From: a virus
Direction: 5' to 3' (one strand)
Length of the DNA: 59,217 nucleotides
IMG/VR virus record: IMGVR_UViG_3300021088_000013
Coordinates: 1 to 59,217 of that record
The position numbers and the translations under genes were made by a program. The first letter of the stretch is position 1. Each line of letters opens with the position of its first letter. Below the pieces are notes generated by a model. That model was not told where the DNA came from, searched no databases, and saw nothing but the letters and a program-made list of their open reading frames with translations. Positions 1,739 to 56,089 of the stretch are shown piece after piece.

Positions 1739-2185
1739 TTACTGGCAGGATAGTGCATGCACGGGGTTTGCACCACTACGTCTGCGCGCGTACTCAACAA
1801 CATCCCCTACTCGGTATCGCCGAACACCGTCTGGGGAGATTATCGAGTTGATGTGACCTCGTCGTGCCCAATGCCTGAATGATTGCGGGTTGACGTGAAA
1901 CAGATCCGCTAGCTCGCTTGGGGTTAGCCAGTCATCGATGCATAACGGCTGATCAGACGGCATTACCCAGCCTTGCCCTAGTTGATTCCAGCGGTTGTCT
2001 AGATCGGCTAGGGCAGCGATTGGGTTATCAATCTGCCCGGCCAGGGACATCTCTAGAAGCTTGCGGTATGAGGTTGCGACGCGCCGCGCCCTGGCTACTC
2101 GATCGGTCTCGGGCCATGGCCACACGTCTGTCACATCTGACAGGTTACGGCGTTTTTGAAACGGTACTGGCTGCGGAACCGTCAA
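1739..2185 (-). CDS. MerR/excisionase-type HTH DNA-binding protein
   Basis: 148 residues. Residues 86-140 fit a winged helix-turn-helix of the MerR/excisionase (HTH_17) type: WLTPSELADLFHVNPQSFRHWARRGHI is followed by a wing (ISPDGVRRYRVGDVVEYARRR). The N-terminal 80 residues are helical with no recognised motif. Only a TTG start at 2185 covers the full length; the next in-frame Met is residue 66, inside the helical region. The gene is divergent from the six-gene rightward cassette starting at 2261, so it is the natural candidate to control it, or to act as excisionase or Cro-like factor. Fold confident, role inferred. Confidence 0.7.
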   Translation of the reverse strand: MTVPQPVPFQKRRNLSDVTDVWPWPETDRVARARRVATSYRKLLEMSLAGQIDNPIAALADLDNRWNQLGQGWVMPSDQPLCIDDWLTPSELADLFHVNPQSFRHWARRGHINSIISPDGVRRYRVGDVVEYARRRSGANPVHALSCQ

Positions 2186-2260
2186 AAGTTATCTAACTGT
2201 GACACACATCACAAACACACCCTGTTTCCGAGACCGGATCTAGGTGGTATGCTCCCAGGC
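2186..2260 (+). promoter_or_regulatory. Divergent intergenic region with leaderless-type promoter for the rightward cassette
   Basis: A TATGCT -10-like hexamer at 2248-2253 ends seven bases before the ATG at 2261, the spacing expected if transcription starts at the A of the start codon (a leaderless mRNA, common in mycobacteria). It is preceded by GGTGG, as at 28745-28748. No good -35 is visible. The region also holds TGTGACACACATCACA, a short imperfect palindrome that could be an operator for the divergent HTH protein. Confidence 0.4.
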
Positions 2261-2428
2261 ATGAAAAGCTTCGACAGGTTAGACGCAAACACCTGGTCGG
2301 ACGATAACCTTCCAGATGGTTATGAGTGGCGTGAATTTAACGCTGAGCTTGATCAATGGCATCTCTATGGACCAGATGGAACAGATCTCACAACTGAATA
2401 TCATCTACATCAAGGTTTCTACGAATAG
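2261..2428 (+). CDS. Small acidic hypothetical protein, first gene of rightward cassette
   Basis: 55 residues from ATG 2261 (MKSFDRLDANTW). Upstream in-frame extension is possible, but the -10-like hexamer just before this ATG supports a leaderless start here. The protein is aromatic and acidic, with repeated Asp and Trp/Tyr residues (WREFNAELDQWHLYGPDG), and looks like a compact beta domain. It resembles no family I can name. Small acidic proteins at the head of a minor-strand phage cassette are sometimes host-defence inhibitors, but nothing here proves that. Confidence 0.6.
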   Translation: MKSFDRLDANTWSDDNLPDGYEWREFNAELDQWHLYGPDGTDLTTEYHLHQGFYE

Positions 2429-2446
2429 CACATAGTAGAAGGCGAA

Positions 2447-2575
2447 ATGACAGACAATGGTCTTGATATAGCTATTCCGCTCGTTATAATTGCACTCACA
2501 GCTATCGGAACTGGAGTCTATAAGCTTCAATCATTTCTAGAACGTTGGGATCAACAACGACACTTCAAGGACTAG
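2447..2575 (+). CDS. Small single-span membrane protein
   Basis: 42 residues (MTDNGLDIAIPLVII and onward), with one clear membrane segment at residues 6-25 followed by a basic, aromatic tail (FLERWDQQRHFKD), so the C-terminus is probably cytoplasmic. A good ribosome site (AGAAGG) lies about seven bases before ATG 2447. It ends 14 bases before the next ATG. Function unknown; candidates include superinfection exclusion or membrane-signalling roles. Confidence 0.6.
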   Translation: MTDNGLDIAIPLVIIALTAIGTGVYKLQSFLERWDQQRHFKD

Positions 2576-2589
2576 GAAAGGCAACTCCC

Positions 2590-2760
2590 ATGCAACTCGG
2601 ATTAAACGGTCTAGGAGACATCACTAAAGTACTCCCGGAGGTCATGAACATGTCACGAGCAACCCAGAGGGAACTTTCTGAGATCCGAATCCTACTTAAG
2701 GAACTTGTTGACCTTCAGAGCCGCGCACTTCTGCTAGCATCAATGGAATCACACCAATGA
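2590..2760 (+). CDS. Small helical hypothetical protein
   Basis: 56 residues from ATG 2590 (MQLGLNGLGDI), preceded by AGGAAAGG at 2573-2580. A TTG at 2545 would extend it but has no ribosome site and overlaps the membrane gene. The C-terminal half is a strong amphipathic helix (LSEIRILLKELVDLQSRALLL), probably a coiled coil. The stop overlaps the next ATG (ATGA), so the two are translationally coupled. Confidence 0.6.
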   Translation: MQLGLNGLGDITKVLPEVMNMSRATQRELSEIRILLKELVDLQSRALLLASMESHQ

Positions 2761-2936
2761 TAATTTGCGATAGGTGCAACGCGCGCGCCAAAACAGAAGT
2801 TATCATGAAATCAGGACTTTACTTATCGTTTTGCTGGCATCATTGGAATAGACATAAAACAGCTATAACACCGATGATTGTCAGCGTACGTGATATTGAA
2901 CACGAACTTATAGAGTGCCAAAACGATTGCGAGTAG
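2757..2936 (+). CDS. DUF7455-like zinc-ribbon protein
   Basis: 59 residues beginning MIICDRCNARAKTEV. It has a CxxC at residues 4-7 and a second metal pair in CWHHW around residue 25, with LYLSF between, the layout of the small actinobacterial DUF7455 zinc-finger proteins (CDRC, about 18 residues, then CxHH). It starts as ATGA on the previous stop and runs 22 bases into the next gene. Likely zinc-binding; partner unknown. Confidence 0.6.
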   Translation: MIICDRCNARAKTEVIMKSGLYLSFCWHHWNRHKTAITPMIVSVRDIEHELIECQNDCE

Positions 2937-3283
2937 ATGTGACCTTATCTAACGCTGAATTCCGCTGCCTGCGTGAGTTCCTTGGACTTCCTGTGCAATG
3001 GGTTGCGCAAGAACTACGCGTCAATGAACATACTGTTCGTGATTGGGAGACTAATGATCGACCTATCCCAGGTTACGCATCTGATTACCTATCTGATTTA
3101 GGTAAGAATGCTAAACACGCAGTAGAGAAATTAATCATGAAGTGGGATAGTCAAATCGCACTTCAAGTCCCTAAAGGGTCTCGACAAAACTATGAAGAGC
3201 ACTTTCCGCCATCATACCACCGCGCGGTGGCATCACGAGTGCGTGAGAATATCGGATCTAGAATTAGATACCAAGAGGACTGA
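2915..3283 (+). CDS. HTH transcriptional regulator of the rightward cassette
   Basis: Up to 122 residues. The segment AEFRCLREFLGLPVQWVAQ, then LRVNEHTVRDWETNDRPIP, is an XRE/DUF1870-type helix-turn-helix as found in small phage and toxin-antitoxin regulators and in anti-CRISPR-associated (Aca) proteins. The C-terminal 70 residues are helical and basic. The GTG at 2915 has no ribosome site; a GTG at 2939 (VTLSNAEF) just after the previous stop is an equally likely start. It sits fifth of six genes, the position of a self-regulator that limits its own cassette. Confidence 0.65.
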   Translation: MPKRLRVDVTLSNAEFRCLREFLGLPVQWVAQELRVNEHTVRDWETNDRPIPGYASDYLSDLGKNAKHAVEKLIMKWDSQIALQVPKGSRQNYEEHFPPSYHRAVASRVRENIGSRIRYQED

Positions 3284-3543
3284 TGAGCGCAACAGAATAC
3301 CTAGTAGATAACAACATTGATCGATTAGATCAGTGCTGTGAAATATGGAGCTGCCGTAACCTAAATACATTCGCTTCATGGGTACTAACTATGTCATGCT
3401 GTGGAGGAAAAGTTCTTACCTGTGAATCATGCAAACTATTCTGGATTGACAAACAACATGATGCAGGACTGGTATGCTACAGATGTGGAACAAGGAATAA
3501 AACCGTTGCGATGGCATTTATGGATATACGAAGAATAAATTAG
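3283..3543 (+). CDS. Cysteine-rich zinc-ribbon protein
   Basis: 86 residues; eight cysteines including CC at residues 18-19, SCC, then CESCKLFW and CYRCG spaced like a four-Cys zinc ribbon in the C-terminal half. The start overlaps the previous stop (TGATG). The stop overlaps the converging leftward gene by four bases, so the two transcription units meet head-on here without a visible terminator. Likely a metal-binding adaptor; function unknown. Confidence 0.6.
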   Translation: MSATEYLVDNNIDRLDQCCEIWSCRNLNTFASWVLTMSCCGGKVLTCESCKLFWIDKQHDAGLVCYRCGTRNKTVAMAFMDIRRIN

Positions 3544-4463
3544 CATCCAGAAACCGAAGCATCAGAATCGCTAAGCATTCCCCGCAAGAGCTCAACTACT
3601 GCATACCCATCAATTCCAGCCAAATCATCTTCGGTCATGGTAAGTAGTCTCCGTACTTCATAAAGCTTAGAATCCGATTCAATCAAACGATATTGAGCTT
3701 CGGCCAACAACCACTTCAACATTTCAGTCTCCTCATGCTCGTGCTCAGCCATGATCATATGTGCCAACCAGTTGTATTCACGTTCAGTCCAACGGCCGCC
3801 ACATGTCATGCAATCGATGTCGGTGGAACCGTTATTGATTCCCAGGGTAGGAGCACCACAATCGAGAATGGGGCATGGCATCGATAACCTACGACGCTGG
3901 TGTGTTTGACCTAGTAATGTTTCAACATCATGATGTAGATCCGATAATTTAAGTGCCACATCAACTCCATCGAGTTCTACAGCTTCCCATCCTCCGGTTT
4001 TAAACCACACCGACACCGACTGTTGTGGCGCCGTGAGTAAGGCCCTGAGATTATCAGGCAGCACCCGTGCGGCTTGCGCGATGACCGGTTTATCACGAAC
4101 TGGCCAGCCTTTAGCTTTGTGTCGAATCTTAGGATCGATGCCGAGTGTTTCGGCTACCATCCATAGCGCTGCTTCACACCATTCGCCCAGGGAGCTGTGT
4201 AGCGCTAGGACGGTGCCGTTGAGCGGCATCGGCGGTTCAGGTGTTCCGCTGACATGCAAATTCGCACTTTGTGTTTTATCTCCTATGGCAGCGTTGAGCG
4301 CTTCGGAATCGGCCTGTAGCGCCATTACCGATCTTTGTACTGCTGCGTAGCAGCGCCTGCATAGTCCGCGTTGTTCGGCGATGATTGCGCTGATGCGTTG
4401 TCCGTTGATGGTTTGGGCGTCTCTACATCGTTTTTCGGCTGCGCAGTAGTGGTCAGTCATCAT
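3540..4463 (-). CDS. Zinc-binding protein of an actinophage early-gene family
   Basis: 307 residues. The N-terminus has a Cys motif (HYCAAEKRC, then GLCRRCYAA); a central alpha-helical part follows; residues 205-235 form a second zinc ribbon (PCPILDCG, later IDCMTCGGRW), and an acidic C-terminus ends it. This layout of an N-terminal Cys pair, a helical middle and a CPxC/CxxCG ribbon is common in uncharacterised actinobacterial prophage DNA-interacting proteins. The start codon (ATG 4463 or 4460) overlaps the previous gene. It is the last gene of the long early operon. A DNA- or RNA-binding role is inferred. Confidence 0.55.
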   Translation of the reverse strand: MMTDHYCAAEKRCRDAQTINGQRISAIIAEQRGLCRRCYAAVQRSVMALQADSEALNAAIGDKTQSANLHVSGTPEPPMPLNGTVLALHSSLGEWCEAALWMVAETLGIDPKIRHKAKGWPVRDKPVIAQAARVLPDNLRALLTAPQQSVSVWFKTGGWEAVELDGVDVALKLSDLHHDVETLLGQTHQRRRLSMPCPILDCGAPTLGINNGSTDIDCMTCGGRWTEREYNWLAHMIMAEHEHEETEMLKWLLAEAQYRLIESDSKLYEVRRLLTMTEDDLAGIDGYAVVELLRGMLSDSDASVSGC

Positions 4464-4659
4464 CTATCGTGAACTTACCTGGTGATATGAAATGATATTG
4501 CGGATAAATAACATCTTTATCATCGTCGTCGCCGTAAACCTCGTTGAGTATGCGGTGTAGTCGTTCAATGGCTGCTGGCATGTCAAAGTTAAGACTGGGA
4601 CGATCTCCAGTGTAGTAGGCCGTTCCGAACCGTCCGTCTATTCGCTTTGCTCTAGTCAT
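4453..4659 (-). CDS. Hypothetical protein
   Basis: 68 residues. Basic N-terminus (MTRAKRIDGRFG), then an acidic run (GDDDDKD). The start overlaps the DUF3310 gene stop as ATGA and the end overlaps the next gene by 11 bases. No motif recognised. Confidence 0.6.
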   Translation of the reverse strand: MTRAKRIDGRFGTAYYTGDRPSLNFDMPAAIERLHRILNEVYGDDDDKDVIYPQYHFISPGKFTIDDD

Positions 4660-5964: not shown

Positions 5965-6068
5965 TTCCGATTATCGCTTCCGTCGATGTGGAAGTAGCGA
6001 TCCATCAACGATTCGACACGAATGGCGATCTGTCCACAGGACGGGCAGACGACGCTGTGAGTTGTCAT
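5925..6068 (-). CDS. Small zinc-ribbon protein
   Basis: 47 residues (MTTHSVVCPSCGQIAIRVES), with CPSCG at 8-12 and a lone Cys near residue 36 (NRKCWVAISS). The start is an ATGA overlap with the 51-residue gene upstream, and the end overlaps the next gene by 40 bases. Likely metal-binding; no family recognised. Confidence 0.55.
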   Translation of the reverse strand: MTTHSVVCPSCGQIAIRVESLMDRYFHIDGSDNRKCWVAISSEKPYE

Positions 6069-6220
6069 AAGTATCCAATCTGAATCAACTTTGATAGTTC
6101 TTCTATCAAATCCGGAATCTGCTCATCTGTGAACGCTCCCCTTACCCAGTGTCTCCGTCCGTCGGGCATCGGAATTATTTCCGGTTTCCTGTGTAACTTG
6201 CCCATCTCCTGAGTGGCCAT
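6065..6220 (-). CDS. Small hypothetical protein
   Basis: 51 residues (MATQEMGKLHRKPEIIPMPD and onward), with a helical acidic C-terminus (DEQIPDLIEELSKLI). A long purine-rich ribosome site (AGGAAGAAGG) lies eight bases before ATG 6220. It is the first gene after the 11-mer array, so its expression may respond to whatever binds there. Confidence 0.6.
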   Translation of the reverse strand: MATQEMGKLHRKPEIIPMPDGRRHWVRGAFTDEQIPDLIEELSKLIQIGYL

Positions 6221-6248
6221 CGGGTGTCCTTCTTCCTGAAATTTTACT

Positions 6249-6278
6249 CGCGTACGCGTGTACGTACACGTACATACA
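6249..6278. other. 30-bp alternating purine-pyrimidine tract
   Basis: Every base from 6249 to 6278 alternates pyrimidine and purine (CGCGTACGCG, then GTGTACGTACAC and further TACA steps). It contains two perfect palindromes, 6249-6258 and 6258-6269. Such tracts can adopt left-handed DNA or melt under negative supercoiling. It abuts the 11-mer array and may be its unwinding or structural element. Confidence 0.6.
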
Positions 6279-6282
6279 GTCG

Positions 6283-6530
6283 TTGAGACAGTGAGACACC
6301 TTGAGACAACTGACGGCTACAGTTGTCTCACGATCCAGTTGTCTCATCAGTTGTCTCACAGTTGTCTCACCTATTTCCCCTGGTTAAAACAGTTGTAACA
6401 GTTGTCTCACTGCGACTGAAGATTTTGACTTTTTCAGTTGTCTCAAGTTCGTCTCAAAACTGATCTTGAAGGTGATACAACCGTCAGTTGTCTCAGTTGT
6501 CTCATGGTCACGGGTAAGCTGAGACAACTG
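6283..6530. repeat. Iteron-like array of CAGTTGTCTCA; candidate replication origin
   Basis: Ten perfect 11-mers in 250 bp. In one orientation: 6320-6330, 6336-6346, 6348-6358, 6359-6369, 6399-6409, 6435-6445, 6485-6495 and 6494-6504. Inverted copies at 6302-6312 and 6520-6530 bracket the array. Degenerate copies lie at 6283-6299, 6390-6400 and 6446-6456. Starts are 9-50 bp apart, several at 11-16 bp, so copies can fall on the same face. The array lies immediately downstream of the Prim-Pol/RecA-type replication gene, where phage and plasmid origins often sit. A partition site or multi-site operator is the alternative. No gene is credible in this stretch. Confidence 0.8.
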
Positions 6531-6542
6531 AACGCTGGAACA

Positions 6543-8681
6543 TTAATCCGACTCACGATTTTCGCCGTATCGATCCGCAGCTGTGGGTAATCTCCAGTAG
6601 GCTTTGCATGGGTAGCCCTCCCTAAAAGACACCACATTGAGTTGTTTCATGGCCCGATAGAGCGTTGGACGAGAGATGTCTTCATCGTTTTTTGCCTTGG
6701 CGCAAATTTGCTTCGCCGGGGCCTTGCCTTGCTCTTCTAGGTAGTCCCTCAGCCATGCCATAGCGAATCCGGGACCACCTAGCTCAGTCTCACCTTCAGT
6801 GTTGGAGTCCAGCACATCGGCTGCTGATAGCTCACAACGTCCAAGGATGTTGAAGGCTGCGACTTGTGCTTCACCGCCTAGGTCAGTGGGGATGGTGGCT
6901 GTGGCGATTTCGTAACGCAGCGACAAGTCCTCCACTCCCGTGGAGTTTTTGACTTGGCTCATGACCCGATCGCCGGTGCGTTTGTCTTTAACGAAGGCGA
7001 AGATGGCCCGGGCGACTTCCCCGAAGGCTGATGATCCGTTGATGGCTGCAACTAGATCGTTTCCTGGGAATTTGGTGAAGTGGGCGACGCCGAGCACTAT
7101 GCCGTCAATGGCTTCCGCTATCTGGGACCAGGGCTCGACATGAACGCGTGTTTCGTTGTTTTGGTTGATGTTGGTGGTTCCGGGGATGGTGGACATGATG
7201 GGGTCGACTACGATGACCCGAACGGAGGCCGCCACGAACGCTTCGATGAGCCAGTCTCGATGCGCCGCCGACATGAGTTTGGTGGGGTTGTCGTCGAGGT
7301 CGCGCATGTCGGGGAAGCAGATTCGTGCCGTGTCGGCCCCAGCGGCGTCTAAGCCGGGCTTGATGACGTAGCTGTGGCTTTCCTCGCCTGGGCTGATGTA
7401 GGCGACGTTGACGGGTTGACCGTACCAGCAGCCGTCTATGTTTCCGTTTGAGTAGCCCGCGGCGAACCAGCGCGCCGCGTTGGATTTCCCTGCGGCCGGG
7501 CGGCCGGCGAGGATCGCTAGGGTTCCTTTTTGGATGCGCCCCCGGTGATCGTAGGACCATGCCCAGGTGGGAACGTTGGATTTGATCTGATTGGCGAGTG
7601 TGAGGTGCACCCGTTTGTGTCCGTTGACGATGGGTGGCGACACAGAGGTTATCGGTGGGCTATCGGAACGAGGTAGGAGCCCGTCTGGTACATCGGAAGG
7701 GTGAACCTGTAGCCGAATGGCAGGGGGTGTCCAAATGTCGCTGAAATCGGATCCTAGGCCCTTTTCCGTTTTGGCCCGCACATCTACGAGTGGGGTGCTG
7801 CGGGCTTGTGCTACAGCCCAGGCAAGCATTCCGCGGAACTCCGCGTAGGCACTGTTCTCGGATAAAGATCTCACACCAACCTTGGCGGTGAGCATGGATT
7901 CGATGAAGGCTTCTTGGAGTATTTCGATGGCGTCACGGGCGGGGAAATAGCCGGCGCGGGCCTCTTCGAGCGCCGCGGTGAGGATGGAGACCATGGTGTC
8001 GTGGCGGCTATCCCCGCGTTCGACATGTCCGCGGTATTTGCGTGTCCAGTTGGCGAGGATGCCGGGCCTGGAGCTGCCGCTGGCGTCTTGAATGAAGGCG
8101 CGTACGTCGCTATCGGTGGCGCAGGATTCGGCTTGTGCGGTGTCGGCAAGCATTTCGGATAGCGGTACCGGTAGTTCGGGTATTTCACCGATCAGAACCC
8201 AGCGGTATTCGCCGCTTTCGGGGTGTTGGGTGGGCTGTACGCAGATGACGCCGCCTGCGCCGCGAATGTCGAGGCCTAGGCCGGAGAGTTTTCCTTTTCC
8301 GTTTCCTATGCGTCTTCCGGCAGGTTGGGTGAAGAGGTAGTGTCCGCGACCTATTGAATCGGGTCGGGTGGATTGATAGGGCGGCTGGACGGAAAGGATG
8401 ATCTCGTTGAGCCATGCTGGTATGAGCTCAGGTTTGTCTACGTCGAGGACGATGAGTCCGGAGCGTCCAATGTCGATGGCGATACCGTCGCTGCTGCCGG
8501 CAAACCAGGCGGTGAGCACTTCGATGTCACGTGACGATTTGTCCTGCCATGTCTTACCTACCCGGCTTCCAGGGTTTTTGGTACCCGGCGCGACTGGGAG
8601 TAGATAGAGGCCGGCTTCAGCGTAGCTGAGTGCCGCAGTGAGGTTGTCTGCGTTATGGGGAAGGTTGGGGATCTCAGTCAT
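6543..8681 (-). CDS. Prim-Pol primase-helicase replication protein
   Basis: 712 residues. Residues 13-180 are a bifunctional primase-polymerase (Prim-Pol) domain: YAEAGLYLLPVAPGTKNP at the start, catalytic VLDVD at 78-82 and GRGHYLF with His114. A helical middle precedes a RecA-like ATPase: Walker A GRPAAGKSN at 393-401 and Walker B VIVVDP at 489-494. Residues 645-705 look like a winged helix (ISRPTLYRAMKQLNVVSF), a likely origin-binding domain. The layout matches plasmid and phage initiators that prime, unwind and recognise the origin. It is followed directly by the 11-mer array, its probable binding site. The inter-domain linker at 326-336 (VHPSDVPDGLL) is encoded by a 27-bp sequence repeated at 28853-28879. 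Confidence 0.85.
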   Translation of the reverse strand: MTEIPNLPHNADNLTAALSYAEAGLYLLPVAPGTKNPGSRVGKTWQDKSSRDIEVLTAWFAGSSDGIAIDIGRSGLIVLDVDKPELIPAWLNEIILSVQPPYQSTRPDSIGRGHYLFTQPAGRRIGNGKGKLSGLGLDIRGAGGVICVQPTQHPESGEYRWVLIGEIPELPVPLSEMLADTAQAESCATDSDVRAFIQDASGSSRPGILANWTRKYRGHVERGDSRHDTMVSILTAALEEARAGYFPARDAIEILQEAFIESMLTAKVGVRSLSENSAYAEFRGMLAWAVAQARSTPLVDVRAKTEKGLGSDFSDIWTPPAIRLQVHPSDVPDGLLPRSDSPPITSVSPPIVNGHKRVHLTLANQIKSNVPTWAWSYDHRGRIQKGTLAILAGRPAAGKSNAARWFAAGYSNGNIDGCWYGQPVNVAYISPGEESHSYVIKPGLDAAGADTARICFPDMRDLDDNPTKLMSAAHRDWLIEAFVAASVRVIVVDPIMSTIPGTTNINQNNETRVHVEPWSQIAEAIDGIVLGVAHFTKFPGNDLVAAINGSSAFGEVARAIFAFVKDKRTGDRVMSQVKNSTGVEDLSLRYEIATATIPTDLGGEAQVAAFNILGRCELSAADVLDSNTEGETELGGPGFAMAWLRDYLEEQGKAPAKQICAKAKNDEDISRPTLYRAMKQLNVVSFREGYPCKAYWRLPTAADRYGENRESD
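7681..7707 (-). repeat. 27-bp sequence repeated in opposite orientation at 28853-28879
   Basis: Identical over 27 bases to 28853-28879 (minus-strand copy reads GGTTCACCCTTCC and onward); with the flank GCTAC it continues to 33 bases with one mismatch. Here it encodes the linker of the replication protein. The two copies face opposite ways, so recombination between them would invert about 21 kb. Confidence 0.9.
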
Positions 8682-8687
8682 GCCGCT

Positions 8688-8957
8688 TCAGGCATCTTTG
8701 ATTCTGGAATTAGGGTGTGGATCTGTCATGCGCCATTCCCAAGTGTCTGGTGTTCCACCACACCATTCCCACTTACGGCCCATGTCGTCAATAAAGCATT
8801 GATCAGGGATAGTATCCATAGCCGCCAGCGCGGATTTAGCCCAGACACGGTAGGTTTGACATTCATCTTCTGTGAGAAGCTCGTAGTAGACGGATTCGAT
8901 ATTTGACCATATCGCCGCGGTGAGGGCTTCGGCCACTCGGTCGATTTTGTCGCTCAT
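8688..8957 (-). CDS. Hypothetical protein
   Basis: 89 residues from ATG 8957 (MSDKIDRVAEALTAAIW), an ATGA overlap with the HTH gene stop. A helical N-terminus is followed by a tryptophan-rich end (RKWEWCGGTPDTWEWRM). Function unknown; it lies between an HTH protein and the replication protein. Confidence 0.6.
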   Translation of the reverse strand: MSDKIDRVAEALTAAIWSNIESVYYELLTEDECQTYRVWAKSALAAMDTIPDQCFIDDMGRKWEWCGGTPDTWEWRMTDPHPNSRIKDA

Positions 8958-9325
8958 GAGAGGGTTTTGTCGGTGAGTAGTAGTCCAAGCTGGCGCTGAA
9001 GGTTCCGCACCGAGGTTAGGCTTCCGCCTCGGCATGCGCTGCGCCCGCGGTAGCGCTGATAGAGGTAGTCCGCGCTAAATCCTAGGGTGCGTGCGATCTC
9101 CTTAATGGGGCACTCGTCGGCGAGCATGTCTTCGATGAGTTGCCGATCATCATCGGTTATTCTGCGGACGGGGCGTTGTATGCCTAGAGCAGCGCGGTAG
9201 CGCTGCACGGATCGTCTTGTTACACCCATTGATGCAGCGATTTGTGTGATGGTTAAACCTTGTCGATCAAGTTTGAGTGCGGTTTGTCGACGTCGCTCTA
9301 TCTCTTCGCGGGAAATGTTGCACAT
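8954..9325 (-). CDS. HTH DNA-binding protein, two HTH segments
   Basis: 123 residues. Residues 10-50 are a homeodomain-like helix-turn-helix (ALKLDRQGLTITQIAASMG, then VTRRSVQRYRAALG). A second similar unit follows (DDRQLIEDMLADECPIKEIA, then LGFSADYLYQRYRG), as in phage HTH_23/HTH_38-type regulators and transposase-like binders. It is the first gene leftward of the structured gap at 9326-9523 and directly precedes the replication genes. It may regulate them or bind the origin. The fold is clear, the target unknown. Confidence 0.7.
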   Translation of the reverse strand: MCNISREEIERRRQTALKLDRQGLTITQIAASMGVTRRSVQRYRAALGIQRPVRRITDDDRQLIEDMLADECPIKEIARTLGFSADYLYQRYRGRSACRGGSLTSVRNLQRQLGLLLTDKTLS

Positions 9326-18025: not shown

Positions 18026-18409
18026 ATGGCGCTTCCTGAATTTGAACACCTACCTCCTTACTGGATACTGAACATTGAGATGGAGGCGCAATATCTCCAT
18101 AGTGCTCACGAACGAGTTCAGAGAGAGGTACAGGCTGCTCGCAATCACGGCGCATCCTGGCGGGAGATCGGCGAAGCACTCGGCGTCAGCCGGCAAGCCG
18201 CACAGCAGCGATTTGGAAAAGTGATTGAGAGACCAAGCCATATGCGCAATGTGTTCGAATGTAACGGACTACAGTTCCGTCTGAATACCCACGAGCGCCA
18301 CTGGCTACTTTCCTACTGGGATCAAAACCGCTGGTTATCACTGTCACAGTGGCGCTCCCGCAAAGAGGCGATTAACGCTGCTGAGTGCTTCACCCCTATA
18401 GACCGCTAA
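18026..18409 (+). CDS. HTH DNA-binding protein, candidate immunity regulator
   Basis: 127 residues. Residues 30-62 form a helix-turn-helix (ARNHGASWREIGEALGVS, then RQAAQQRFGKV) of a type common in actinobacterial regulators; the C-terminal 60 residues are basic and Trp-rich (HWLLSYWDQNRWLSLSQW). It is transcribed rightward, divergent from the early operon, from a near-consensus promoter overlapped by a palindrome, and converges on the PPE gene (four-base overlap of the stops). That is the classic position of a phage repressor between early and late halves. Repressor identity is inferred. Confidence 0.65.
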   Translation: MALPEFEHLPPYWILNIEMEAQYLHSAHERVQREVQAARNHGASWREIGEALGVSRQAAQQRFGKVIERPSHMRNVFECNGLQFRLNTHERHWLLSYWDQNRWLSLSQWRSRKEAINAAECFTPIDR

Positions 18410-19482
18410 CCCGATGATAAGTTGGGGTGCGAAGTAAATCTCACCGTTTTTAATAGCTCACTATCTTCTACGCTTTGTCCCCTAGGCTTTTTGCTACCAG
18501 GCTGTTGGCGAGCTGTGATAGCCATAGGAATCGGAGCTGGCATAAAACCTCGACCACTAGTGGATAATGGGCGCGCAAGGGAGCGTTCTGGAGCTAATGT
18601 CGGCTGCGCCGCAGATGCCCATGATGGTGGCACGGACATACCTAGACCGCCGAGTGGGCGAGCGGTTCCTGTCGCGGCGCGTACTATGGGTGCTCCGCCA
18701 GATGGCATCGCAGGGATGATTGGTGCGGCTACACGTAGGCCGGTATGTATCTCGTTTGCGATCGAGCTCACACCGGAGCTTATACCGAACAAAGGCAGTA
18801 ATCCGAGCAGTCCGATGGGGATTTCGGCAATCATTCCAGATGAAATGAATGATTGGAAAGTGGTGCCCAGAAATCCGCTTCCAAACAGGTTGTTTAAGAT
18901 GTCGCCGATACTAACCGGAGCCGCTGCTGCTGCTGGTCCAACTGCCGCGGCTATGGGATTGCCGGCTGAAGTAGCTGGTGCCAGTTTAGGCAATCCGCCG
19001 GTAGCGGCCGACGACATTCCTTGATAGGTGCCCATAGCAGCGACATCTTGTGCCCACATAACCATGTACTGAGCCTCAGTAGCTGCGATCGCTGCAGTAT
19101 TCTGCCCGAGGAAATTCGTGGCCACTAGAGCCGTGAGCTGCATGCGATTGGCGGTGACCATAGGCAATGGCACCATGGCCGCTCGAGCAGCTTCATAGGC
19201 CCCGGCTGCCATCTGAGCCTGAGCGCCTGTGAGTTCAGCGTGCATGGCCGCCTGGGTTAACCAGGCACTATGACTGCTAGATGCCGCAGCCATAGCGATA
19301 GCAGAGGGTCCTAGCCATGTACCCAATAACGTCACTGTGACGGAATTCCATACAGTGGCAGCAGCTTCAAGTTCAGCGCCTAAAGATTCCCACGACAAGG
19401 CAGCAGCTATAAGGGGAGCCGAACCTGGCCCCATCATGATCCGAGCTGAGTTAATCTCCGGGGGGAGCGCCGCGTAGTCCAC
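18406..19482 (-). CDS. PPE-SVP family protein
   Basis: 358 residues from GTG 19482 with GGAG seven bases upstream; an ATG at 19515 would add 11 residues not found in PPE proteins. The PPE domain is complete: VDYAALPPEINSAR with Pro-Pro-Glu at 7-9, Trp56-x-Gly58 in the helix turn, and a QLTALVATNFLGQNT, then EAQYMVMWAQDVAAM, stretch. The C-terminal part has the SVP signature GLGMSVPPSW at 279-288, placing it in the PPE-SVP subfamily. Mycobacterial PPE proteins pair with a PE partner and leave through a type VII (ESX) system; no PE or esx gene is visible here. It is last in a cassette of membrane proteins and overlaps the DUF7427 gene by 32 bases. Identity very strong, role unknown. Confidence 0.93.
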   Translation of the reverse strand: MDYAALPPEINSARIMMGPGSAPLIAAALSWESLGAELEAAATVWNSVTVTLLGTWLGPSAIAMAAASSSHSAWLTQAAMHAELTGAQAQMAAGAYEAARAAMVPLPMVTANRMQLTALVATNFLGQNTAAIAATEAQYMVMWAQDVAAMGTYQGMSSAATGGLPKLAPATSAGNPIAAAVGPAAAAAPVSIGDILNNLFGSGFLGTTFQSFISSGMIAEIPIGLLGLLPLFGISSGVSSIANEIHTGLRVAAPIIPAMPSGGAPIVRAATGTARPLGGLGMSVPPSWASAAQPTLAPERSLARPLSTSGRGFMPAPIPMAITARQQPGSKKPRGQSVEDSELLKTVRFTSHPNLSSG

Positions 19483-19741
19483 ATATTCTCCAGAATGCAA
19501 TGTGGAAAGGGTCAATCTTTTCCGGTAGAAGATTCAATAGATGCGCCCCAGTAGCCCCTACTACCAGCCAGCATCCGATACGACCTAGGGGGCGATCTAG
19601 CCAGCGATCGAACGAATGGCTCATCATCGGATATGATCCGCGCGTAAGCATTGCTTCTGCCACTGCGATGTATACAACAAGACCAGCCCAAGCACAGGTA
19701 TCCCTAGGGACTGTCGTTAAACGATCTCCTAAAATCGTCAT
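19451..19741 (-). CDS. DUF7427-like membrane protein
   Basis: 96 residues with two hydrophobic segments (WAGLVVYIAVAEAML near 20-34 and GCWLVVGATGAHLLNLLP near 60-77) separated by a basic loop (FDRWLDRPLGRIG). The LLNLLPEKIDPFH ending is typical of the DUF7427 mycobacteriophage membrane family. Start ATG 19741 overlaps the previous stop. Role unknown; it neighbours the PPE gene and other membrane genes. Confidence 0.6.
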   Translation of the reverse strand: MTILGDRLTTVPRDTCAWAGLVVYIAVAEAMLTRGSYPMMSHSFDRWLDRPLGRIGCWLVVGATGAHLLNLLPEKIDPFHIAFWRICGLRGAPPGD

Positions 19742-25833: not shown

Positions 25834-26181
25834 TTAAGCAGAAGGTGCCGGAGCAGGCGGCTCGAGTGCGTCAAGAGCAGCCACGGCGGCAGTAAGTTCA
25901 GTCTCGTCAGCAGCCGGTAGTGGTGTTGCCTGGTTGGCTAATAGTTGGGCAATGTAGCCTTTAAGAACACCGACTGCTGCGGTGATCTCAGAGGTGAAAT
26001 TGTCCAGATCAGCCTGGGCGATCTGAACCATTCCGGTGGGAGTTGACATTTCAGTTTCCTTTACTTGTTGGGGAACTAATTTTTGAAGATCGACCAAGGC
26101 GGAACGAAGAGCCTTGGTATCAGCCTGAGGGAGAGGCGTAAGAGCTTGTGTAAACGCCTTCCAAAAGTCTGACCAGCTCAT
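25834..26181 (-). CDS. Hypothetical Ala/Pro-rich protein
   Basis: 115 residues, helical, with repeated Leu/Ala heptads (ALRSALVDLQKLVPQQV, then AAVGVLKGYIAQLLANQ) and a final APAPSA. Overlaps the PLD gene stop by four bases. No motif. Confidence 0.55.
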   Translation of the reverse strand: MSWSDFWKAFTQALTPLPQADTKALRSALVDLQKLVPQQVKETEMSTPTGMVQIAQADLDNFTSEITAAVGVLKGYIAQLLANQATPLPAADETELTAAVAALDALEPPAPAPSA

Positions 26182-26732
26182 GATTGGCCTAGCATGTGTG
26201 AGTGAATGTGAGCGATCCGAATTCTAGCTTCGTTCGCCTCGATCGGATTATAACGTATGGTCAGCTCATTGTCCTGTAGGTGCTCAGCTGCATCTGACCA
26301 ATTGGTGCTTCCGCTGACGAGCCATACGCCATCAACGACCATGAGCTTCATGTGCATGATGCGACCATGCTCACTCGATCCGATTGCAACGCTCGTGTTA
26401 GGGTACTTTTCCTGCTTCAGTATGGCAGCTTCATGCACACCACCAGCCTGCGATTTGTCTAGCGTAAGCTGAACAAAGCATGACGAATCAGTGAGTTTCG
26501 ATTTGATGGCATCGGCAAGCTCTTGATCGTCATACCCAAACATCGCCACTATCAGTTCCTTGTTGGCCGACTTGGCGATATAGATCAGCGCGCCGTGCAA
26601 ATCATCTACCGGTGAGTAGAAGGTTCGGCTATCGGGCGCGTAACCGGCAGCGAAGCCGCCAGTCTTGAACTGATCAAGCACGCTCAGGTCATCGAGAGGG
26701 TGCTTCGCGCCACCTGATTTCAGCATTATCAT
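26178..26732 (-). CDS. PLD-family (HKD) nuclease-like protein
   Basis: 184 residues from ATG 26732 (MIMLKSGGAKHPLDD), ATGA overlap. One HKD motif near the C-terminus: HMKLMVVDGVWLVSGSTNW, i.e. HxK, x4, D, then GSxN, as in single-motif Nuc-type nucleases and phospholipase D family members that act as dimers. The N-terminal part fits the fold (ALIYIAKSANKELIVAMFGY). No signal peptide. Nuc-type enzymes cleave DNA; other members hydrolyse phospholipid. Location in the lysis region is odd for a nuclease; possible roles are host DNA breakdown, membrane lipid attack, or exclusion of other DNA. Confidence 0.75.
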   Translation of the reverse strand: MIMLKSGGAKHPLDDLSVLDQFKTGGFAAGYAPDSRTFYSPVDDLHGALIYIAKSANKELIVAMFGYDDQELADAIKSKLTDSSCFVQLTLDKSQAGGVHEAAILKQEKYPNTSVAIGSSEHGRIMHMKLMVVDGVWLVSGSTNWSDAAEHLQDNELTIRYNPIEANEARIRIAHIHSHMLGQS

Positions 26733-26932
26733 TCCGATATCTCTTCCGGTATTCTGACGCCGCAATCGTAGCAAGTTCGCAGATTGAATCCATTGCTGAC
26801 ACCGGTATCTGACAGCATGTATATGTGTAGCTCATAACCGCTGGGTTTCAAGCATTTCTGGCACCACAGTCCGGTTGTTAATTTTCCAGGCACCAGATGT
26901 ATCAGAAAGCTAGACTTATTCATTGTTCCCAT
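26729..26932 (-). CDS. Small zinc-ribbon protein
   Basis: 67 residues (or 64 from ATG 26923), with CQKCLKPSG and CYDCGVRIP forming a classical CxxC-CxxC zinc ribbon about 27 residues apart. Overlaps the 32-residue membrane gene. Function unknown. Confidence 0.55.
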   Translation of the reverse strand: MGTMNKSSFLIHLVPGKLTTGLWCQKCLKPSGYELHIYMLSDTGVSNGFNLRTCYDCGVRIPEEISE

Positions 26933-54764: not shown

Positions 54765-56089
54765 TTCATTCCCTTCGAAAAACCGTTTCGCGCCGGTTGG
54801 CCGTTAGATACGGGCTGAGGTTTAGGCTGTGCATTAGTAACGTCATCCACGCCAGTCAGCTGACTGGCTGCTGTTGGCTCGTCGGAGTATCTCTCCATTG
54901 CCCTGATCTCCGGAGCGGTGATAGCGCCGATCTCATACAAAATTTTGTACGCCTGAGCACGCTCATATAAACCAGGGCGTATATATTCATCAGCGTTTAC
55001 CTCGACAATCTGACCACGCGGCAACGCCCAGTTCGACAAGGCCCCCATAACTGCAGCAGTCATGGGCCTCAAGCCAGCACGGAAGTGGTGATCAAACAGC
55101 GACGTCGCATTCGCATATGTCATCGACGACCCAGCAGCCGCCGACAAGCCCAGAAGGAACGGAGGTACCTTCAACGTCACCGCAATACGTGCCTCAGTGA
55201 ACTGGGAAATCTCAATCAACGTCATATCACGAGCAGACATCGACTGAGTCTGATTCAACTTCATCCCACCAGCTACCAACGCTGGCTCACCCGCGTGGCG
55301 CACTCGGGATTCTACCCATAGCCCTAGTAGATTATCGGCTTCGTCTTGGGTCATATTTCGATCCACGCCGAACCAATAATGCGGTATCCCGCCAGTCTGG
55401 GCTATCCGATCGCCGTACTTCTGCAGCAACCCAGCTGTAACCATCCTGGCACCCGCAGCCTCGAGCGGAGAGTGCCCATGTGCATCAGCAGTGTTGCTGA
55501 TGTTCCGAATGTGTAGTATTTCTTCAGTAACATTAATACCACCTAGATGGTATTCACGAGTGCCCTCTATTAGCTCTACGTTCATCAGCCACGGGGGCAC
55601 CACACGAAACGTCAACGGATTCCCGTCAGCTGCCGTAGACATCGGTAGAACAAATGCCTCGCCCATCTGGTAATCCCAGAACAGTTGCTTAGCGAACTCT
55701 TCCCAGGACGTATAAATCGTGGGATCTGGATTGACCAACCAGCCTGGAGGTGGTAAAATATTGCCATTTTTCAGCCGATATGCGGGTAAACTCGACAAAA
55801 TCGACGCATTCAGGTCGATTGCGGCCCATGCGGTATCGACAAGAGCCGACAACCCCATCTGCGACGATGACCAGTACATCGGCGTCGACCAAGCCCCGGG
55901 CCACCCAGACCACGGTGAAGGCTGAGGAAACGGCAATGACCGTGAATACGTTGGCCCGAAATCAATCTCCGCACCACACGGATCACCGGGACTAACCCCT
56001 GTGCCACCACCTACATCCGCAGGCGCATTAGTGTTCGGCGTCTCACCGTCATAATTTGGCTGGCCGGTAAGCCACCCCCAAAAACTCAT
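54761..56089 (-). CDS. Portal protein
   Basis: 442 residues, HK97-type portal: GLSALVDTAWAAIDLNASIL near the N-terminus, PWLMNVELIEGTREYHLGGI, the clip/stem region (QKYGDRIAQTGGIPHYWFGV) and the C-terminal FLLGLSAAAGSSMTYANATS. Forms the dodecameric DNA channel. The Pro-rich first 60 residues are typical of mycobacteriophage portals. Confidence 0.85.
   Translation of the reverse strand: MSFWGWLTGQPNYDGETPNTNAPADVGGGTGVSPGDPCGAEIDFGPTYSRSLPFPQPSPWSGWPGAWSTPMYWSSSQMGLSALVDTAWAAIDLNASILSSLPAYRLKNGNILPPPGWLVNPDPTIYTSWEEFAKQLFWDYQMGEAFVLPMSTAADGNPLTFRVVPPWLMNVELIEGTREYHLGGINVTEEILHIRNISNTADAHGHSPLEAAGARMVTAGLLQKYGDRIAQTGGIPHYWFGVDRNMTQDEADNLLGLWVESRVRHAGEPALVAGGMKLNQTQSMSARDMTLIEISQFTEARIAVTLKVPPFLLGLSAAAGSSMTYANATSLFDHHFRAGLRPMTAAVMGALSNWALPRGQIVEVNADEYIRPGLYERAQAYKILYEIGAITAPEIRAMERYSDEPTAASQLTGVDDVTNAQPKPQPVSNGQPARNGFSKGMN

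Follow-up and report, generated by a model that had tools for sequence, protein, structure and literature searches.

A candidate iteron-type replication origin beside a Prim-Pol/RecA-like helicase gene in a viral genome

Satellite phage P4 has two repeat regions, ori1 and crr, and its helicase is of the SF3 type. A single P4 protein, alpha, primes, unwinds and binds the origin repeats by a C-terminal winged helix, its primase being of the bacterial Toprim type (PMC4234260). ORF904 of the archaeal plasmid pRN1 begins with an AEP Prim-Pol and has a winged helix at its C-terminus. A cis element that is essential lies just 3' of its gene; the authors described a stem-loop at this place and explicitly denied iterons (PMC4234260). 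The same paper names RSF1010, with RepA, RepB and RepC and the iterons of oriV (PMC4234260).

Among mycobacteriophages, the extrachromosomal prophages Miko, Rachaly and Jeeves have RepA origins in which repeated motifs were not identified, and the parS of RedRock consists of eight 8-bp repeats (PMC7157519). The start-associated sequence (SAS) of cluster K, GGGATAGGAGCCC, is found at start codons, and the repeats reported for this cluster are not those described here (PMC3203893). An earlier reading made from the sequence alone knew of no array like this one from mycobacteriophages, which agrees with the searchable literature; most subscription journals lie outside it, and an earlier description is possible.

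Here, we describe an array of short repeats in a stretch of DNA from a mycobacterial virus, 59,217 nucleotides long (IMG/VR record IMGVR_UViG_3300021088_000013, positions 1 to 59,217), which we call the window. The array adjoins a gene at 6543-8681 on the minus strand and, because of that orientation, lies 3' of it, immediately downstream as the sequence-only reading had it. The 712-residue product was also correctly described there as Prim-Pol/RecA-type: Pfam finds Prim-Pol (PF09250, 4e-25) and an AAA_25 RecA-like ATPase (PF13481, 2e-14). The helicase part has the RecA/DnaB/RadA-like fold of AAA_25, so that the protein has neither a Toprim primase nor an SF3 helicase, and with only Prim-Pol and AAA_25 in the Pfam result, the Rep_3-type initiator fold (P1, RK2 type) was not found. 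AlphaFold2 models predict a C-terminal winged-helix domain (6588-6767, minus strand), which we propose as the origin-binding domain on the strength of the covariation described below. Its recognition helix, ISRPTLYRAM, spans residues 669-678 (6648-6677, minus strand), or about 671-680 in the models, with P672 at helix index 3 and Y675 at index 6. A fold search of the PDB with the winged helix gave insignificant, generic matches only. This domain content fits an initiator role. Elsewhere in the window, a PPE family protein (18406-19515, minus strand; PF00823, E 2e-56), of a family typical of mycobacterial secretion, is encoded in the phage genome and has no match in 50,697 phage records, and a protein with a PLD-like domain (26178-26774, minus strand; PF13091) is encoded among phage genes.

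Like P4 alpha, the window protein appears to be an all-in-one protein with a C-terminal winged helix, here a predicted one whose reading of repeats is suggested by covariation; it differs in combining an AEP Prim-Pol with RecA-like AAA_25, where P4 has a Toprim primase and SF3. With ORF904 it shares the AEP Prim-Pol, the C-terminal winged helix and the element 3' of the gene, but AAA_25 stands where ORF904 has an SF3 helicase. RSF1010 likewise has iterons, helicase and primase at one origin; there the proteins are three, whereas a single polypeptide seems to combine all of these functions in the window. The prophages Miko, Rachaly and Jeeves are a further mycobacterial case of an initiator encoded by a phage and linked to its cis site, but their RepA has 320-350 residues and an N-terminal HTH, and repeats were not identified at their origins. 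In the broad sense the locus resembles an iteron-controlled replicon, in that a short repeat occurs many times close to its initiator gene.

The array (6302-6530) holds ten exact copies of the 11-mer CAGTTGTCTCA, eight forward and two inverted at the ends, which bears out the earlier count; they start at 6302 (minus), at 6320, 6336, 6348, 6359, 6399, 6435, 6485 and 6494 (plus), and at 6520 (minus). The copies at 6485 and 6494 overlap as a doublet of period 9. Degenerate copies, also noticed earlier, are present with two mismatches each at 6292-6302 (minus, at the outer edge), at 6390-6400 (plus, forming a 9-bp doublet with the exact copy at 6399) and at 6473-6483 (minus). Exact copies are absent from the rest of the 59,217-bp record. 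Matches with at most two mismatches number 34 in the window against 15.4 +/- 4.1 in shuffled sequence, and none of 100 shuffles reaches 34. Within a 600-bp stretch at the initiator gene's 3' end the most frequent 10-mer occurs 12 times, compared with at most three in shuffles and at most four in other 600-bp windows.

Between the copies lies a core (6370-6392) that holds TTTTAACCAGG, read on the minus strand. The motif TTWACCAG occurs exactly in the arrays of the window, of the related contig L005 and of plasmid pCG2; it was rejected as a universal origin element, being absent from eight other arrays checked. An alternating purine-pyrimidine tract (6248-6279) adjoins the array, with a similar tract after the L005 array, and beyond it comes a small open reading frame of 51 residues (6065-6220, minus strand) that has a similar counterpart in contig L006. 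The proposed easily melted tract is weak in this array. The array is richer in AT than the whole (55.6% vs 49.1%), but its least stable 40 bp reach just the 95th percentile, and its least stable stretch (6410-6460, GAAGATTTTGACTTTTT...), at the 95th-97th percentile of the window, is a possible but modest melting site. As a single strand the array folds more stably than shuffles (z -4.8), as its inverted repeats must cause it to do. GC skew has no clear switch at the array.

Over its full length the initiator shares about 40% identity with a protein of mycobacteriophages in cluster K5 (Kratiovirus). Against the Boilgate homologue, identity in the C-terminal half is 43%. Nearer homologues occur in two uncultured viral contigs, L005 (69% identity) and L006 (66%), both with an array at the equivalent position: L005 has the same 11-mer plus CGGTTGTCTCA variants, and L006 has its own repeat, CTGTTGTCTCA. 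The 11-mer pair alone also led to contigs L008, L009 and L011-L013; contig L010 is without an initiator homologue. More relatives were drawn from viral contigs, plasmids and the genomes of Mycobacterium, Nocardia, Rhodococcus, Gordonia, Williamsia and others, and arrays were called by a blind search, in which the most repeated 10-mer at the gene 3' end must exceed all shuffles of the locus. By this rule 50 of 62 loci have an array where the homologous gene ends (3'), whereas 6.5% of control windows taken from elsewhere in these loci pass (69 of 1065); four of the 12 loci with no array at this place belong to K5.

Relatives with an array in this place occur in phages, prophages and plasmid pCG2, but the 10- or 11-mer itself differs by lineage: CAGTCGGTGCA in Boilgate, CAGTCGCGTCA in L025, CAGTCACGTCA in L045, CAGTCGGGTCA in L028, CAGTCGCGCCA in L043, CTGGTGTGCCA in L016, CAAGGGAGCA in L034, CAAACGGACA in L038 and CAAATCTTCA in L039, among others. 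Most of these motifs fit CA-N6/7-CA, and head-to-tail copies have a CA in common, which gives a period of 9 or 8 bp. In a layout common to many loci, a left-pointing doublet or triplet is followed by a core and then by a right-pointing doublet or triplet, the outer copies being inverted; the core measures 17-57 bp in ten loci and is often richer in AT than the locus. The inner order differs in the window's clade. In several prophage homologues (L030, L031, L035, L029) the initiator frame stays open through the array, where the iterons would encode a linker, and some of these frames end in a Cys-rich, zinc-ribbon-like tail. In two relatives from Microbacterium phages, at 27-30% identity, no array follows the gene. 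Six copies of CTGTCACACC, possibly an intragenic array, lie near the 3' end of a distantly related primase/helicase gene in Microbacterium phage Squash (L101, about 6800-7250). Plasmid pCG2 was rejected as proof of autonomous replication, since it also has a Rep_1-like gene.

An unbiased scan of every winged-helix column against every repeat base in 28 loci, with no pairs preselected, placed recognition-helix index 6 with repeat base 7 at the top (z 11.8), followed by index 3 with base 8 (z 9.1) and with base 9 (z 8.9); phylogeny is not fully removed from these scores or from the permutations below, relatedness inflating them in part, and the 11-mers were numbered by hand (29 loci). A rule for base 7, pairing K and R with G, E, D and Q with C, and Y with T, was set from 12 loci before the helices of the other 17 were compared, some of whose repeats had already been listed. 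It was right in 15 of the 17, both misses being Q with T, and Q with C only is thus too narrow. In these held-out loci K/R went with G7 in 13 of 13 cases and other residues with G in none of four (Fisher 4e-4). The pattern persists in a reduced set of 23 loci below 70% identity. In a partial Mantel test that controls for helicase-domain distance, iteron distance follows the distance at indices 3 and 6 (r 0.56, not equalled in 5000 permutations), and this is the best of 78 helix pairs. In the window, P672 goes with CT at bases 8-9 and Y675 with T at base 7. Between the close relatives L025 (4530-4730) and L045 (4640-4828) several copies have changed together, from G to A at base 6, and the change goes with E to D at helix index 6. 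The covariation points to the initiator's own winged helix as the repeat-binding element, and binding of the repeats by this domain is strongly inferred.

The K5 phages offered a further comparison. No array was found beside their Prim-Pol gene, which had stood as an argument against the origin reading, an array absent in close relatives. Their recognition helix, FSESSIKRAAQKL, has S at index 3 and K at index 6, and GGT was therefore predicted at bases 7-9, as in the L028 motif CAGTCGGGTCA. The densest cluster of this motif in the 63,874-bp genome of Thyatira, and the only dense one there, is at 62502-62708 (L015 47503-47709), with seven matches of at most two mismatches in 250 bp; 150 permuted motifs gave at most five, none being as dense. 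If one overlapping match is set aside, the copies read CAGTCAGGTCA, CAGTTAGGTCA or CAGTCGGGTCA, and each has GGT at bases 7-9. They are arranged like those of other arrays around a core, TATATAATTATTTCTAGTTGAACTAACTATATATATTGAA, that contains the genome-wide stability minima at lengths of 30, 40 and 60 bp. The site is close to the end of the genome, in a gap free of genes that precedes the last two, and about 14 kb from the Prim-Pol gene. Every one of the 32 K5 records that carry the Prim-Pol gene has this region; in 12 of these records the match extends over about 64% of the region, and its only annotation is one hypothetical gene, in InvictusManeo. The code-based search thus overturned the argument from K5, where the array stands at another place in the genome.

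Two arrays occur in Boilgate, one beside the gene and the other, a 92% identical copy, in a gene-free gap near the right end (L014 47444-47700, about 55443-55699 of the Boilgate record). The two differ at 22 columns, none of them within the iterons (P 1e-4), and the melting ease of the Boilgate array is at the 99.99th percentile. The pair resembles ori1 and crr of P4. In published stem-loop origins of the pRN type, the stem arms of pRN1 (L073 5074-5185) and pHEN7 (L075, 3' of gene 1917-4607) contain the doublets TGTCCAnnnTGTCCA and TGTCACnnnTGTCAC, spaced by 9 bp (P about 0.001 each), which equals the iteron spacing of the window; the arm periodicity of pRN2 is weak (P 0.04, and 0.30 over any shift), and a doublet is not evident in the pDL10 arm.

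Perhaps the array controls replication instead of starting it. The initiator could bind the repeats of an autoregulatory or copy-control site through which the array governs expression, handcuffing or incompatibility, as with P1 incA and P4 crr, the true origin being elsewhere. The arrays do lie outside the region upstream of the initiator, and the Boilgate array is present twice, as happens in replicons whose control locus is a separate one. Most loci, however, have one array, the single array of Thyatira holds its genome's least stable DNA, and no sigma-70-like promoter match occurs within the window array; we consider such a control site unlikely. Considering that clustered direct repeats can also form a partition site (a parS-like centromere), and that such sites are known in mycobacteriophages, RedRock among them (PMC7157519), the linked ParA/ParB of a centromere might be expected, but neither family occurs among the window proteins scanned, in which small ORFs were covered less than exhaustively. 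The repeat sequence, moreover, tracks the winged helix of the Prim-Pol protein, and a centromere is very improbable.

The same tracking bears on the idea of an operator array that serves another phage protein, either a repressor or an HTH protein such as the one encoded nearby at 8954-9325. Phage operators can be multi-copy, but cluster A stoperators and the cluster K SAS are 13-bp sites dispersed through the genome, whereas all exact copies here stand in one 250-bp block. Given also that the position of the array follows the Prim-Pol gene in phages, prophages and a plasmid, and its sequence that protein's winged helix, we attach very little weight to a separate repressor. Repeats can expand and homogenise, and the array might be a chance, low-complexity or selfish expansion without function. 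This was already disfavoured by a place that is conserved despite different sequences and by the covariation with the protein, and mutation spared the iterons in the Boilgate duplicate; the probability left to it is negligible.

The reading that we prefer, at a probability of about 0.82, is that the array represents the iterons of a phage replication origin, bound by its own Prim-Pol/RecA-like helicase via the C-terminal winged helix. The candidate origin of the sequence-only reading, with its initiator-bound iterons, is supported by the conserved array, the residue-base covariation and the K5 array found by the code, and replication of the viral DNA very probably begins at the array. We infer origin function from the nature of the initiator, the placement, and the melting minimum in K5 and Boilgate; with the modest signal in the window, the link to melting rests on these relatives. 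In this model, winged helices would bind the 11-mers, the head-to-tail doublets and inverted copies would bring several subunits together, a helicase ring would load on melted DNA within or beside the array, and the Prim-Pol would make the first primers, one chain thus serving as origin binder, helicase and primase.

The window may also belong to a large, undescribed family of replicons in actinobacterial phages, prophages and plasmids, with a one-protein binder, helicase and primase and a readable residue-to-base code. The archaeal pRN plasmids would then share its layout, in which doublets of 8-9 bp flank a core in inverted order and the whole lies 3' of the gene, and their "stem-loop" origins would be inverted iteron doublets. 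We put this broader proposal forward tentatively, as somewhat less probable than even odds. Candidate origins are now placed in 32 records of K5, a group propagated on M. smegmatis, as well as in Boilgate and dozens of prophages, and the code is specific and testable, linking two protein residues to three bases. If it is right, origins would become mappable, and plasmid backbones for harmless laboratory strains of actinobacteria could follow. With initiator and iterons diversifying together, each phage would initiate at no origin but its own, which would account for how related phages could keep their replication separate.
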